A DNA stretch of 49,938 bases, taken from positions 1-49,938 of IMG/VR virus record IMGVR_UViG_3300021375_000041; one strand, written 5' to 3'. The first letter of the stretch is position 1. Each line of letters starts with the position of its first letter. Shown in pieces: positions 4,438 to 34,130 of this stretch. The notes under the pieces are model-generated. The model saw only the letters and a list, made by a program, of their open reading frames with translations. It was not told the DNA's origin and did no database searches. The position numbers and the translations under genes are program-made. Source of the DNA: a virus.

Positions 4438-5139
4438 TCATTTTTTTAATTTACGGGCTGTTTTAGTGTTCTGGTCAAGTTCTCTAATTCTTTTTAAGAT
4501 ATTGACATCAAGTGCATTTATCAGTAAAGCACTTCTAAAATTCTCACTCTTATTTGGCATCGTACTGTGTAAAGTTCTTGCATTATACATCAGTGCATCG
4601 CCAGGATTTGAAACAAATTGAAATCCATCATTAACTAACATCTCATCATAGTCACTCTGATTCTCTTCTATATCTTTATAATAATACATTTCACTGTGTG
4701 AGCCGGGAAGAACACAAGTTGCTCCGTTTTCAAGTGTAAACTTATCTAATGGTATTATACATTGTATGCCAAACACTTCATCATTTGATATACGAGCATA
4801 CTCTTCAAATCTATAAGGAGTATCAATATGTGCCCTAATCTTTGAACTTGCTGGCCTTGTTGTAATACAATCTACTACATGAATATCCCATTCTTTTCCT
4901 TGAAAGAAAGTATCAATGTATCTACTTAAGTTATCTACGATGGGCTGCCACATCTCTCTTGGTGGCACTCTAGTCCACCAGACATTGTATTCTCTACCTT
5001 TACGATGTTTCCCGTAGTATTCCCCATTTACAGCGTTACCACGATGTATGTTGTCTGGGTTCATTGCCCACATTTTAAACTGTTTAACAGTAAAAGGAGA
5101 AATTAACTCTTTTACTGATAAGTATCCTTGATTTTGCAT
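4438..5139 (-). CDS. PhyH-type 2-oxoglutarate/Fe(II) dioxygenase
   Basis: Non-haem iron oxygenase of the phytanoyl-CoA dioxygenase (PhyH) superfamily. The metal ligands are readable: H104-x-D106 in AHIDTPYR and the distal H191 in TLHSTMPNKS, with R202 in the position that binds 2-oxoglutarate; NGATCVLPGSH is the typical strand-turn of the family. The substrate is unknown; phage members are often suspected to modify DNA, protein or small molecules, but nothing here decides. Length 233 aa is normal. A late TATAAATA motif lies about 22 bp upstream of the ATG, so it is probably made late with the virion proteins. Confidence 0.78.
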   Translation of the reverse strand: MQNQGYLSVKELISPFTVKQFKMWAMNPDNIHRGNAVNGEYYGKHRKGREYNVWWTRVPPREMWQPIVDNLSRYIDTFFQGKEWDIHVVDCITTRPASSKIRAHIDTPYRFEEYARISNDEVFGIQCIIPLDKFTLENGATCVLPGSHSEMYYYKDIEENQSDYDEMLVNDGFQFVSNPGDALMYNARTLHSTMPNKSENFRSALLINALDVNILKRIRELDQNTKTARKLKK

Positions 5140-5160
5140 TTATATACCTTCCTAAAACTT

Positions 5161-5168
5161 TATTTATA
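5161..5168 (-). promoter_or_regulatory. Late promoter motif before the dioxygenase
   Basis: Exact TATAAATA on the minus strand, just upstream of the dioxygenase start; it is back-to-back with the plus-strand late motif at 5197. Confidence 0.55.
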
Positions 5169-5196
5169 ATATTCAAATTATATTACTATATTATAT

Positions 5197-5205
5197 GATA
5201 AATAC
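5197..5205 (+). promoter_or_regulatory. Late promoter motif before gp14
   Basis: GATAAATAC on the plus strand, 33 bp upstream of the gp14 ATG, with the GGAGA ribosome-binding site between. It probably drives gp14-gp15-Nudix. Confidence 0.65.
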
Positions 5206-5237
5206 AGTAAGAAGTCAAATTATGGAGAAAAATAGTT

Positions 5238-6245
5238 ATGGCAAGACTTAGCCTATGGAATCCTAAAAAGGGTAACGATTATAAATTTGTTGACAAAACA
5301 GTCAAAGCACACTTTGACCACGGTGGAACATCTCTTCTAATTCATAAGTATGTTGGCTCACAAGATAAGACTGCCGCAGACTATGACCCTGCAAACCCGG
5401 CAATACAAGATTTACTATTCTTAGAAAACCGTGATAGAAAGTATGATGCTGATGTGTATGACCTTAGAGGAGTTTATACTGTATCTGACCAAGATTTTGA
5501 ATTATCACAGTTCGGCATGTTTCTAGGCAATGACCAACAAGTATTCACTTTACATCTAAACGAAATGGTTAATCAACTAGGTCGTAAAATTATGACTGGT
5601 GATGTAATCGAATTGCCTCATATGCGTGAAGATATGATGCTAGAAGGCAACGATGGTGAAGACCCAGATGCAGTCAATCAATATTGGGTTGTACAAGAAG
5701 CAACAAAAGACGCAGGCGGCTTTGATGCTGGTTGGTGGCCACATATTTGGCGTGTTCGTTGTAAACAACTACAAGATACACAAGAGTACTCTGATATTCT
5801 TGGTACTGGTGAAGAAGCGTCAGATTTGAAGAATATCTTATCAACCTACAATAAAGAACTTCAAATCACTGATGCTGTCGTACAAGAAGCGGCCGATAAT
5901 GTCCCTGGAAAATACTGGGACTACAGAACAAACAATCTACAGTATGCAACACAGTCAAATCACCCAGATGATGTGGATTATGCCACAGTAGCATACGGAA
6001 AAGAATTTCCAAATTCTCCAGCAACGGACTCATATTTCTTAAGAACAGATTATACACCATCGAGGTTATTTCAATATAGAGATAGTAAGTGGTACAGAAT
6101 TAACGATGATGATGGAGCGTGGGAAGTAGGACACGCATTACATAATCAATTTATTAACAATAGTGGAACAGTAAAATTAGATGACGGAACTACTATTACA
6201 TCAAAAGTCAATCTGTCAAAAGCAGTGAGACCAAAGGTAGACTAA
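5238..6245 (+). CDS. 14: Neck protein gp14
   Basis: Neck protein that works with gp13 to form the head-tail connector. The 335-aa translation starts MARLSLWNPKKGNDYKFVDK and contains the gp14-like core DADVYDLRGVYTVSDQDFEL, followed by a stretch GRKIMTGDVIELPHMREDM, a pattern shared by T4-type gp14 proteins; T4 gp14 is 256 aa, so this version is longer. GGAGA lies 9 bases before the ATG. It is followed by gp15 after one base, the same gene order as in T4 (13-14-15), although gp13 is here on the other strand. Confidence 0.8.
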   Translation: MARLSLWNPKKGNDYKFVDKTVKAHFDHGGTSLLIHKYVGSQDKTAADYDPANPAIQDLLFLENRDRKYDADVYDLRGVYTVSDQDFELSQFGMFLGNDQQVFTLHLNEMVNQLGRKIMTGDVIELPHMREDMMLEGNDGEDPDAVNQYWVVQEATKDAGGFDAGWWPHIWRVRCKQLQDTQEYSDILGTGEEASDLKNILSTYNKELQITDAVVQEAADNVPGKYWDYRTNNLQYATQSNHPDDVDYATVAYGKEFPNSPATDSYFLRTDYTPSRLFQYRDSKWYRINDDDGAWEVGHALHNQFINNSGTVKLDDGTTITSKVNLSKAVRPKVD

Positions 6246-8831: not shown

Positions 8832-8860
8832 TTGACAAAGCGAATCACTTGTGCTATATT
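8832..8860 (+). promoter_or_regulatory. Extended -10 sigma70 promoter of structured RNA 1
   Basis: TTGACA (8832-8837), 17 bp, TATATT (8855-8860) with TGC directly before the -10. No coding sequence follows before the terminator at 9086, so the promoter serves a non-coding transcript. Confidence 0.8.
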
Positions 8861-8866
8861 AGTATT

Positions 8867-9115
8867 ATAAGTAGCAAAAGTCTAATTAACTTTTGTTAAT
8901 AGTGCAAGGAAGAGGCTCCTACCAAAAGAGTCGAACTTGACTAACCAGGGGTGGTACCCAGGCTTTATCTGGAAAACAGAGGGAGTCACATCGAAGTCAC
9001 TTTCGGGGTTAGGTTGTACGGTTTAGAAATGGTATTTCGGTCCGTATTTGTAGGTGTACCCAAGTCCTACCTATTTTACTTACATAAAAAAAGGGAGCCT
9101 TTCGGTTCCCTTTTT
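8867..9115 (+). ncRNA. Structured non-coding RNA 1 (about 250 nt)
   Basis: The 320-bp gap between the 233-aa gene and the 129-aa gene holds a stand-alone transcription unit: strong promoter at 8832, predicted start about 8867, rho-independent terminator at 9086-9115, and no convincing reading frame. Readable helices: TAAGTA 8868-8873 with TACTTA 9077-9082 (closes 5' to 3' end); CAAAAGT 8875-8881 with 8889-8895; AGTC 8929-8932 with 8939-8942; GGGT 8949-8952 with 8956-8959; CCAG 8958-8961 with CTGG 8969-8972 (an alternative); TACGG 9017-9021 with CCGTA 9042-9046 enclosing GAAAT/ATTTC; GTAGG 9050-9054 with CCTAC 9066-9070. A second CCTAC at 8918-8922 could compete for 9050-9054. Closed multibranch shape recalls regulatory RNAs such as 6S, but I cannot assign it to a known family. 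Confidence 0.7.
9086..9115. terminator. Bidirectional rho-independent terminator
   Basis: Twelve-base-pair stem (AAAAAGGGAGCC / GGTTCCCTTTTT, one G-U) with TTTC loop, flanked by A-rich and T-rich tracts on both sides. It ends structured RNA 1 on the plus strand and the 129-aa gene on the minus strand. Confidence 0.9.
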
Positions 9116-31448: not shown

Positions 31449-32285
31449 ATGAGCGAACAAGCAAACCCATTATCCAAATACTTTCGTAAACCCACAATTT
31501 ATGTACAAATACCAACAGGTGGCAGATTTAATCCAGAAATTCCTAAAACAATATTAGATGAAATTCCAGTGATGCCGATGACTGCTATCGATGAGATATC
31601 AATGCAAAATCCAGATGCACTTCTTAATGGCGAAGCACTAATGACTGTTATTTCAAGTTGTGTTCCGTCAATTCCCGACCCAAGAAATCTATGTAGTATA
31701 GATGCAGACTTATTATTTTTAGCAATCAAATACGCAACATACGGCAAAACTGTTACACATTTACACACTTGCACTAAATGTGAAGAACAAGCAGAATACA
31801 ATATAGATATAAACAACGTGCTTGAAAAGTTTCCGGAAATACAAGAGGTTGAGCCCATTAAACACGGAGACTTAAAAATCTATATTACTCCTCCAAGAAT
31901 AGAAAGTATGACACGCCTAGCATTAATCGATGTTGAGCAACAACGTATTTTGCAAAGCATACAAGCAGTGAGCGAAGATGATATAACTGAAATGGAACTA
32001 GCAAAACAATTTGCAATTAGTTTTAGAAAAGTATCAAAACAAAACGTAGACTTGTTAATTAGTTCAATAAACAGAATTGAGACGCCAGATGAGACAGTGT
32101 CCGACGAAGAAAGTATTATGGAATTTATGAACAATATTCCAGCGACAATTGTCAAAGAAGTTAATGACAGAGTAAAATTGGTAACCAAAAAACCAGAAGA
32201 CTTAACGACATTTGAGTTTACTTGTGATGCTTGTGACCACCGAGATAAAATAAAGTTTGAGTTAAACCCCGTAAATTTTTCCTAG
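31449..32285 (+). CDS. 26: Baseplate hub assembly protein gp26
   Basis: gp26-type protein needed for assembly of the baseplate hub. N-terminus NPLSKYFRKPTIYVQIPTGG followed by RFNPEI is characteristic of the marine gp26 group. Two CxxC pairs, C108/C111 and C259/C262, probably bind one zinc ion. AAAGGA lies 7 bases before the ATG. The frame ends at 32285, but a canonical slippery heptamer at 32273-32279 lets part of the ribosomes continue in the -1 frame into the gp51-like part, giving a 354-aa product. T4 encodes gp26 and gp51 as separate genes. Confidence 0.82.
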   Translation: MSEQANPLSKYFRKPTIYVQIPTGGRFNPEIPKTILDEIPVMPMTAIDEISMQNPDALLNGEALMTVISSCVPSIPDPRNLCSIDADLLFLAIKYATYGKTVTHLHTCTKCEEQAEYNIDINNVLEKFPEIQEVEPIKHGDLKIYITPPRIESMTRLALIDVEQQRILQSIQAVSEDDITEMELAKQFAISFRKVSKQNVDLLISSINRIETPDETVSDEESIMEFMNNIPATIVKEVNDRVKLVTKKPEDLTTFEFTCDACDHRDKIKFELNPVNFS

Positions 32286-32305: not shown

Positions 32306-32512
32306 GGCGAGGAAATAGTAGAAAAGCAAGAGTCTTATCTAAAAAAACTTGATAATCTACATAAGACTTTATATAAACTATCTTGGTACATGAGGGGTGG
32401 CGTCAGTATATCAGAACTCCACGAGATGCCGGCCAATCATATAGATTATCTAAATGAGATAGTTAGAGACAACTTTGAACTCAGTAAAAACGCTGGAACA
32501 CCTATTTTATAA
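32273..32512 (+). CDS. 51: gp51-like C-terminal extension, read by -1 frameshift
   Basis: The -1 frame is closed by TGA at 32258-32260 and then open to TAA at 32510 without any ATG, GTG or TTG before the internal Met in WYMRGGVS, so independent initiation of a full domain is unlikely. It codes for 77 residues after the slip (FLGWLKTASGEEIVEKQESY... to KNAGTPIL), including KLSWYMRGGVSISELHEMPA and a segment IDYLNEIVRDNFELSKNAG that resembles gp51, the partner of gp26 in T4-type hub assembly. The product would be a gp26-51 fusion made in minor amounts, like the G/GT tail chaperones of other phages. Confidence 0.72.
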   Translation, partial: KFFLGWLKTASGEEIVEKQESYLKKLDNLHKTLYKLSWYMRGGVSISELHEMPANHIDYLNEIVRDNFELSKNAGTPIL

Positions 32513-32539
32513 AAAATACAAAAAAAGTTACAAAAAAGG

Positions 32540-32568
32540 TTGACATCCCTTTTCCACTATGTTAGTAT
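32540..32568 (+). promoter_or_regulatory. Extended -10 sigma70 promoter of structured RNA 2
   Basis: TTGACA (32540-32545), 17 bp ending in TGT, TAGTAT (32563-32568). It lies 28 bp after the gp51 stop. Confidence 0.7.
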
Positions 32569-32574
32569 GGTCAG

Positions 32575-33060
32575 CATAACTAATACAAATCGATTCAAAA
32601 AAACATTTTTAATTCTAATATAAATCCCCAAAGGCTAATAATGATTACAATAAAACAATACATAGTGGAACTGTTAGTCGGGATGCCGACTCGGGATTGA
32701 GGGCGTATATTATACATACGTTCAGACAAGTTGGGTGAAATCCGACACTGCTTCTCGTTAACCACAAATTTTATTTCGTATTTTAACATTCGTTACTCTA
32801 AAGGTAATGAATGACTAGTATTTACCGTACAGAAATGTACAAACCGCGGGTAGGTTAAAACACTACCAACTTTGATGATATTTTATTCTATGTGGATTAT
32901 TCAAAGTGCCGTTGGGTCGAAAGACGCAATGCTAAGTTATGAGGGAATCGCCAACCGACCTCGCCATTGCTAGTGGCTAACTTAGACATAGAATCTGATG
33001 AACAAGAACAGGTTTCATTCGCAATTGTCCAGTGGATGGGCAATTGTGTCTTCCAAACTG
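32575..33060 (+). ncRNA. Large ornate structured RNA 2 (about 490 nt)
   Basis: Non-coding region with dense, mostly perfect helices. AGTCGG 32676-32681/32686-32691; CGTAT 32704-32708/32716-32720; GTTGGG 32730-32735/TCCGAC 32741-32746; a 10-bp stem 32787-32796/32804-32813; GTACA-GAAA-TGTAC 32827-32840 (GNRA loop); GGTAG 32849-32853/32863-32867. ATTCTATGT 32885-32893 pairs over 90 nt with 32986-32994 and encloses GTC-GAAA-GAC (32916-32925), CTAAGTTA 32932-32939/32978-32985, GAGG/CCTC and GCCAT/GTGGC. A 9-bp stem follows at 33022-33030/33038-33046. GTTGG 32911-32915 can also pair with CCAAC 32951-32955, a possible pseudoknot. It is not a recognisable group I or II intron; large phage RNAs of the GOLLD or ROOL kind are the nearest analogy. 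A GIY-YIG gene follows. Confidence 0.65.
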
Positions 33061-33210
33061 AACAAGTAATAAAATAATGGTTTTATAATATAGATATATA
33101 ATTGTATGGAAGAAATAAATATCGAGGAAATCTTCTTTGAGTGGAACGAAAAGAAATTTCTGATGATATTAGGTCTTTAGACCTATTAAGATATATACAA
33201 TGAGACGATA
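33061..33210 (+). other. Leader between RNA 2 and the GIY-YIG gene
   Basis: A-T-rich stretch without a recognised gene. It holds a 24-codon frame (33106-33180, MEEINIEEIFFEWNEKKFLM...) and, in the -1 frame, a second short peptide (GTG 33141 to TGA 33201, VERKEISDDIRSLDLLRYIQ). Read together they could be one small protein broken by a frameshift. A TAGGTC-TTTA-GACCTA hairpin (about 33170-33185) precedes the nuclease start codon. Confidence 0.3.
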
Positions 33211-33648
33211 ATGAGTGAATGGAAATATAACAATAAAGTTGTAAATGAATTACCTGATGATGTTGAGGGATTTGTGTATCTTATTACGAATCTTACAAAT
33301 GACCGAAAATACATAGGTAAGAAGTTAGCGAGATTTAAAACCACTAAACCTCCACTTAAAGGACGTAAGAACAAAAGACGTGGATTTAAAGAAAGTGATT
33401 GGAGAACATATTGGGGTTCTTCTGACCATTTGAATGCGGATGTAAAAAAATTAGGCCCCGATAAATTTTCACGTGAAATTCTACATTACTGTCCGAGCCG
33501 TGGCGCATTAAGTTATGTAGAAGCCAAAGAACAGTTTGACCGTAGAGTACTTGAGACAGATGAGTACTATAACGGCATTATCAATGTACGAGTGGGAAGT
33601 TCGAAAATTCTTACTGAGTATCTAAACAGCGTTAAACAAAAAATATAG
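33211..33648 (+). CDS. GIY-YIG family endonuclease
   Basis: Small GIY-YIG nuclease: the core FVYLITNLTNDRKYIGKKL gives the V-Y-L / Y-I-G-K pair near the N-terminus, followed by the catalytic-arginine/lysine region (RRGFKESDWRTYWGSSDHLN) and a Glu in SYVEAKEQF. Length 145 aa resembles free-standing phage homing nucleases of the Seg type that lack a DNA-binding repeat domain. It does not lie inside an intron that I can see, but directly follows structured RNA 2. Its 3' end overlaps the convergent membrane-protein gene by 17 bp. Confidence 0.8.
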   Translation: MSEWKYNNKVVNELPDDVEGFVYLITNLTNDRKYIGKKLARFKTTKPPLKGRKNKRRGFKESDWRTYWGSSDHLNADVKKLGPDKFSREILHYCPSRGALSYVEAKEQFDRRVLETDEYYNGIINVRVGSSKILTEYLNSVKQKI

Positions 33649-34101: not shown

Positions 34102-34130
34102 ATAATAACACATAGTAAACCCATTGTCAA
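34102..34130 (-). promoter_or_regulatory. Extended -10 sigma70 promoter of small RNA 3
   Basis: Minus strand TTGACA (34125-34130), 17 bp ending in TGT, TATTAT (34102-34107). Confidence 0.78.

Follow-up and report, generated by a model that had tools for sequence, protein, structure and literature searches.

A conserved structured RNA of marine T4-like viruses, probably a new family among the large ornate phage RNAs

We know of only a few classes of large structured phage RNA, none of which has an established function. GOLLD and ROOL, both phage-encoded and of function not established, form RNA-only cages; ROOL is a large RNA with multiple pseudoknots and no known protein partner, while GOLLD is a large phage and marine RNA that is induced during phage lysis (PMC12286853). 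The manA and wcaG motifs are smaller and probably cis-regulatory (PMC2864571). Here we describe a conserved structured non-coding RNA, rich in helices and containing two pseudoknots, which is present in one copy per contig at a fixed locus. It was analysed in the IMG/VR virus record IMGVR_UViG_3300021375_000041, the whole stretch of 49,938 nt being referred to as the window.

The RNA lies on the same strand as both flanking genes, gp26/51 and a SegE-type GIY-YIG gene, in a gap of 698 nt (32513-33210), the length already given in a preliminary description of this DNA. The neighbouring coding features are as follows.

31449-32285, plus strand: gp26 baseplate hub gene (PF12322, E=5.5e-18; phrog_150)
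-1 frame of gp26, continuing to 32512, plus strand: gp51-like stretch, from reading of the frame
33211-33648, plus strand: SegE-type GIY-YIG gene (PF19835, E=6.2e-36), adjoining the RNA in the window's subclade and not in others

A canonical -1 slippery heptamer, A AAT TTT, is located at the end of gp26 (32273-32279), and the gp51-like frame runs on without a start codon nearby. This arrangement is kept in nearly all relatives examined and suggests that gp26 and gp51 are fused by a programmed frameshift. The portal protein is closest to those of cultured jumbo phages such as PA5oct, Phosso and Atu_ph07 (about 45-53% identity), so that the window probably comes from a T4-like marine virus of the jumbo type and covers part of its genome. 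The late-promoter motif TATAAATA showed no enrichment within the window. A manA RNA (RF01745, 57.5 bits) was detected at 8875-9080; shortly before it, at 8832, stands the promoter-like sequence TTGACA-N17-TATATT. On the minus strand, a strong promoter-like site at 34102-34130 resembles the promoter of the RNA described here and faces this RNA from downstream of the GIY-YIG gene.

The core of the RNA was found in about 90 IMG/VR contigs, and core-pattern searches of this database returned 66, 78 (three by chance) and 91 stretches. The pattern matches L151, L154 and L159 (66-67% GC), which are without related genes, were discarded as chance. A search with the GIY-YIG protein led to many loci whose upstream gaps align with that of the window over the full length at 67-93% identity. 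In all carriers with enough sequence the RNA directly follows gp26/51, and it always occupies the gp26/51-gp46 interval of T4-like viruses. When ten large contigs (78-343 kb) were scanned with covariance models of two domains, every one of them proved to have a single copy. The models of both domains had no match in five cultured phages, a DNA search of the INPHARED phage records gave no match to the RNA, and the core pattern was absent from the searched genomes of 84,980 prokaryote species. Judged from these searches, the predicted RNA is common among marine viruses whose cultured relatives are jumbo T4-like phages.

Three elements define the probable ends of the RNA.

32540-32568, plus strand: sigma70-type promoter TTGACA-N17-TAGTAT with extended -10 (TGT), recognised from the sequence, with a predicted transcript start near 32575
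32575-32664, plus strand: 5' leader in which CUAAYA motifs recur (CTAATA at 32580, 32615 and 32635)
33171-33184, plus strand: 3' hairpin AGGUCUUUAGACCU, almost invariant and without a U-tract, the last conserved element of the RNA

The promoter is present as first described, with a TG before the -10, and occurs in most of the window's subclade. Its sequence is not conserved over all subclades, and other promoter-like sites are found elsewhere. The leader contains on average 4.3 CUAAYA copies per 110 nt (32 sequences) versus 0.40 in shuffles, none of which reached the observed mean. The 3' hairpin, which has a single copy in the window, was found in 107 of 109 loci, viruses without GIY-YIG among them. 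Given that the CUAAYA leader and the 3' hairpin are kept across loci, the RNA would extend roughly from 32575 to 33184, and its length of about 610 nt exceeds the approximately 490 nt initially assumed. A protein-coding reading was rejected, since stops occur in all six frames of every aligned sequence and the lengths are scattered with respect to multiples of three.

Between leader and 3' hairpin, the comparative alignment gave the following predicted helices.

32665-32765, plus strand: Domain I, with P1 (32665-68/32762-65), P2 (32676-81/32686-91), P3 (32692-96/32753-57) and the further helices P4 (32702-08/32716-22) and P5 (32730-34/32742-46)
32787-91/32809-13, plus strand: hairpin P6
32827-31/32836-40, plus strand: hairpin P7, GUACA-GAAA-UGUAC, with a GAAA loop; lost in some subclades
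32849-53/32863-67, plus strand: hairpin P8, with one pair significant in the phylogeny-aware test
32870-32993, plus strand: Domain III core, in which P9 (32870-75/32901-06) is pseudoknotted with P10 (32886-93/32986-93), and P11 (32911-15/32951-55) with P14 (32941-44/32959-62)
32916-18/32923-25, plus strand: P12 of Domain III, GUC-GAAA-GAC, with a GNAA-type loop
32932-39/32978-85, plus strand: P13 of Domain III, a nested 8-bp helix
32963-66/32974-77, plus strand: P15 of Domain III
33022-33046, plus strand: hairpin P16, flanked by the direct repeat GAACA(A/G)G (about 33003-33010 and 33060-33066)

The structural elements of the preliminary description can all be recognised in this list. Its two GAAA-capped hairpins correspond to P7 (32827-32840) and P12 (32916-32925), the long helix closing a 110-nt domain (32885-32994) to P10 (32886-32893 with 32986-32993), the nested 8-bp helix to P13 (32932-32939 with 32978-32985), and the possible pseudoknot of 32911-32915 with 32951-32955 to P11. 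A second pseudoknot results from the position of the 5' arm of P10 in the loop of P9. The two copies of the direct repeat around P16 match within most viruses and differ between clades, the versions observed being GAACAAG, TATCAAG, TGACAAG, GGCAAGT, AGGACAG and GGGACAGA.

The fold was assessed in alignments of 38 distinct rows for each of two domains (P1-P5 and P9-P15), in which standard pairing reached 94-97% and 31 pairs in total carried compensatory changes on both sides. For P9-P15, the paired cells amounted to 94.0% and the doubly changed pairs to 21, and none of 500 shuffles reached the observed values of pairing, double changes or covariation; the P1-P5 domain was paired to 96.8%, with 10 pairs doubly changed. 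Because the structure had partly been chosen from the same alignment, slid versions served as controls. These paired to only 29-43% (P9-P15) and 35-51% (P1-P5), i.e. 29-51% over both domains, with 0-5 doubly changed pairs. A phylogeny-aware test that shuffles substitutions on a tree, written for this analysis after the principle of R-scape and used with a cut-off of E<0.05, found 16 of the 80 structure pairs significant versus 0-1 in the slid controls; this number applies to a test restricted to the proposed structure. A plain all-pairs covariation test gave just one significant pair. The best pair belonged to the P11 pseudoknot (32915-32951, E=1e-5), and pairs of P2 and P4 were also significant.

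Individual helices illustrate these changes. P2 varies from AGUCGG/CCGACU to GAGCGG/CCGUUC, AGUUGG/CCAACU or UGUCGG/CCGACA, P12 from GUC/GAC to UCC/GGA, AUC/GAU or GAC/GUC, and P14 from GAGG/CCUC to GGGG/CCCC or GGAG/CUCC. P9 is built from sequences that differ widely between clades, with a mean helix of 8.2 bp versus 5.2 bp when one arm is shuffled. Covariation speaks neither for nor against P1, P3 and the 3' hairpin, in which there is hardly any variation. Single-sequence folding was only moderately better than that of shuffles (z -2.57, one of 100 shuffles as good). We regard the comparative evidence for the predicted fold as decisive. The proposal of a phage-encoded structured RNA, for which a covariation analysis of homologous gaps had been recommended, is thus borne out and proves stronger than first put forward.

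Enough sequence was available for 56 distinct loci; in every one of these the RNA is followed by a nuclease gene on the same strand, and in 54 directly; the next gene encodes GIY-YIG in 38 loci, a PDDEXK_15 nuclease in 16 and a radical SAM protein followed by GIY-YIG in two. The PDDEXK loci make up a whole subclade and have no GIY-YIG within 3 kb downstream. A 402-aa radical-SAM gene separates the RNA from GIY-YIG in three loci, L048 (1796-3004), L107 and L133, the first of which is not listed separately in the tally of 56. PDDEXK_15 (L170 3826-4368, L163 8095-8640) and GIY-YIG (window 33211-33648) belong to unrelated families, share the slot between the RNA and gp46, and never occur together within about 3 kb; GIY-YIG may here replace a resolvase-like enzyme rather than being a mere homing nuclease. 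The statement that the RNA is next to a GIY-YIG gene is therefore correct for the window and fails as a rule, since the neighbour differs between viruses. The suggestion that the RNA is mobilised with GIY-YIG finds no support, given the PDDEXK gene in its place in 16 of 56 loci, the intervening radical-SAM gene in three, and GIY-YIG relatives of 79-85% identity, that of the cultured Melnitz included, where the RNA was not found. Across the compared loci, the predicted RNA and GIY-YIG may adjoin each other but can also be separated. This disposes of a single mobile unit and makes it less plausible to read the RNA as a guide.

According to that reading, the RNA would be the partner or guide of the adjacent nuclease in an RNA-guided system like HEARO/omega-RNA with IscB, and its constant position beside a nuclease gene would fit. 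The constant tie to one nuclease family that characterises HEARO/omega-RNA is lacking in the tally above, in which the same RNA precedes two unrelated nuclease folds, and the GIY-YIG relatives where the RNA was not found also speak against a guide. Moreover, the adjacent nucleases are small single-domain enzymes, HEARO gave no match, and Atu_ph07 has a related-looking nuclease frame after gp51 (by eye) with no match to the RNA models. We consider a guide function very improbable. Even less credence is given to a self-splicing intron or another mobile ribozyme, or a remnant thereof, carried with a homing endonuclease. A structured RNA beside a SegE-type GIY-YIG gene, from a family rich in homing endonucleases, would fit such an element, but the RNA lies between genes and not within one, its position is fixed in all carriers, one subclade has it without GIY-YIG, and no group I, group II or ribozyme model matched at E<=10.

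The main rival holds that the RNA is an exceptionally long, structured 5' leader, through which expression of the nuclease gene behind it (GIY-YIG or PDDEXK) would be controlled in cis. A DNA nuclease as the next gene in 54 of 56 loci fits such a leader and speaks against action in trans. The nuclease gene starts about 20-30 nt past the 3' hairpin, which is no intrinsic terminator; as this hairpin has no U-tract, transcription may continue through it into the gene for the nuclease, and the constancy of this short distance to some nuclease gene keeps the leader alive as an explanation. Control could for example be exerted by a switch, because the bases 32911-32914 pair either in P11 or with CAAY at 32927-32930, and both of these mutually exclusive pairings are possible in 49 of 49 sequences counted. 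A conformational switch between the P11 pseudoknot and the local GUUG/CAAY helix is possible on this basis, but the latter varies on one side only, in one pair. Typical riboswitches are far smaller than this RNA, which has a length of about 610 nt, two pseudoknots and a leader made of repeats, and the same RNA precedes unrelated genes. Taken together, control in cis appears possible but rather unlikely.

We consider it fairly probable that this RNA of about 610 nt, with its own promoter, founds a new family among the large ornate non-coding RNAs and acts in trans in the manner of GOLLD or ROOL. The variety of downstream genes (GIY-YIG, PDDEXK, radical SAM with GIY-YIG) argues that the RNA is not tied to one neighbour. 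Its transcription would be driven by a sigma70-like promoter of the host type, probably at an early stage and without dependence on the structural genes on either side. The leader with its CUAAYA repeats would stay single-stranded, and the core would fold into a compact body with a GNRA-type loop and the pseudoknots. Given that GOLLD and ROOL form RNA-only cages, a trans-acting role as an RNA scaffold or decoy that engages machinery of the host or of the phage seems most likely by analogy, and the RNA might, purely by the same analogy, form a homo-oligomer.

RNA-like blocks were also observed in other phages. In the sister clade L049, L052-L062 (L060 3432-4090), a structured non-coding gap lies directly downstream of GIY-YIG; 24 of its 71 predicted pairs are doubly changed, and it resembles the window RNA in its CTAATA repeats and its first hairpin. 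The L060-type RNA may be distantly related to that of the window, although model scores over the whole loci were not significant. A block of about 500 nt occurs in Salmonella phage Munch (MK268344; L189 3700-4235, minus strand) and L235-L239, and was seen in 31 records of cultured jumbo phages (Munch, 121Q, PBECO4, GAP32, CBB and relatives), most genomes having 4-5 copies. It has no Rfam match and is unannotated or overlapped only by hypothetical ORFs; in a joint fold of five copies from Munch, 32 of 96 pairs are doubly changed. Other RNA-like stretches, for which no annotation is convincing, lie near gp26 in PA5oct (L187 4380-5000, minus strand) and Phosso (L190, about 5000-5560), the stretch of the PA5oct group being single-copy. 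The window RNA models matched neither the Munch nor the PA5oct blocks. The gp26-gp46 interval of jumbo T4-like phages could be an ancient 'RNA locus', and the RNAs of the window, the L049-L062 clade and the multi-copy Munch/121Q/GAP32/CBB type could belong to a single class of large phage RNAs that work in trans, perhaps by assembling with themselves and targeting the machinery of the host; we regard this as an unlikely, speculative extension. The RNA-like blocks at the same locus of coliphages such as 121Q and PBECO4 could make the question of function testable in laboratory strains of E. coli.

Among known families, Rfam 15 at the gathering threshold and at E<=10 matched nothing on the plus strand of 32500-33220; a patAB match on the minus strand, at the promoter, was spurious. 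Within this interval, no match at E<=10 was obtained with the covariance models of GOLLD, ROOL, HEARO/omega-RNA or the group I and group II intron cores, nor did any other family fit, and ARAGORN found no tRNA-like domain with tag frame of a tmRNA in the window. None of the open-licence literature searched appeared to describe the RNA, and a description elsewhere is possible. HEARO/omega-RNA likewise is a structured RNA beside a nuclease gene, but the nuclease beside the window RNA is exchangeable. Like manA and wcaG, the window RNA is a structured RNA of marine T4-like phages, and manA even shares the window with it, but it is larger and its structure unrelated. As in ROOL, a large, phage-encoded molecule contains multiple pseudoknots; in contrast to ROOL, which it matches in neither sequence nor structure, it lies between gp26/51 and gp46 in a window without tRNA genes. 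With GOLLD it shares the large size and the phage and marine origin, while being shorter (about 610 nt versus over 800) and without tRNA neighbours in the window. A long non-coding RNA with covariation-supported structure and pseudoknots is what distinguishes the large ornate phage RNAs, and these features were all found here. Together with the lack of a fitting Rfam family, the extensive covariation makes the undescribed class that had been envisaged a probable one: the window RNA is probably a new family of a known kind, the large ornate phage RNAs, outside GOLLD and ROOL. It adds an independent, covariation-supported family for asking what large phage RNAs do.
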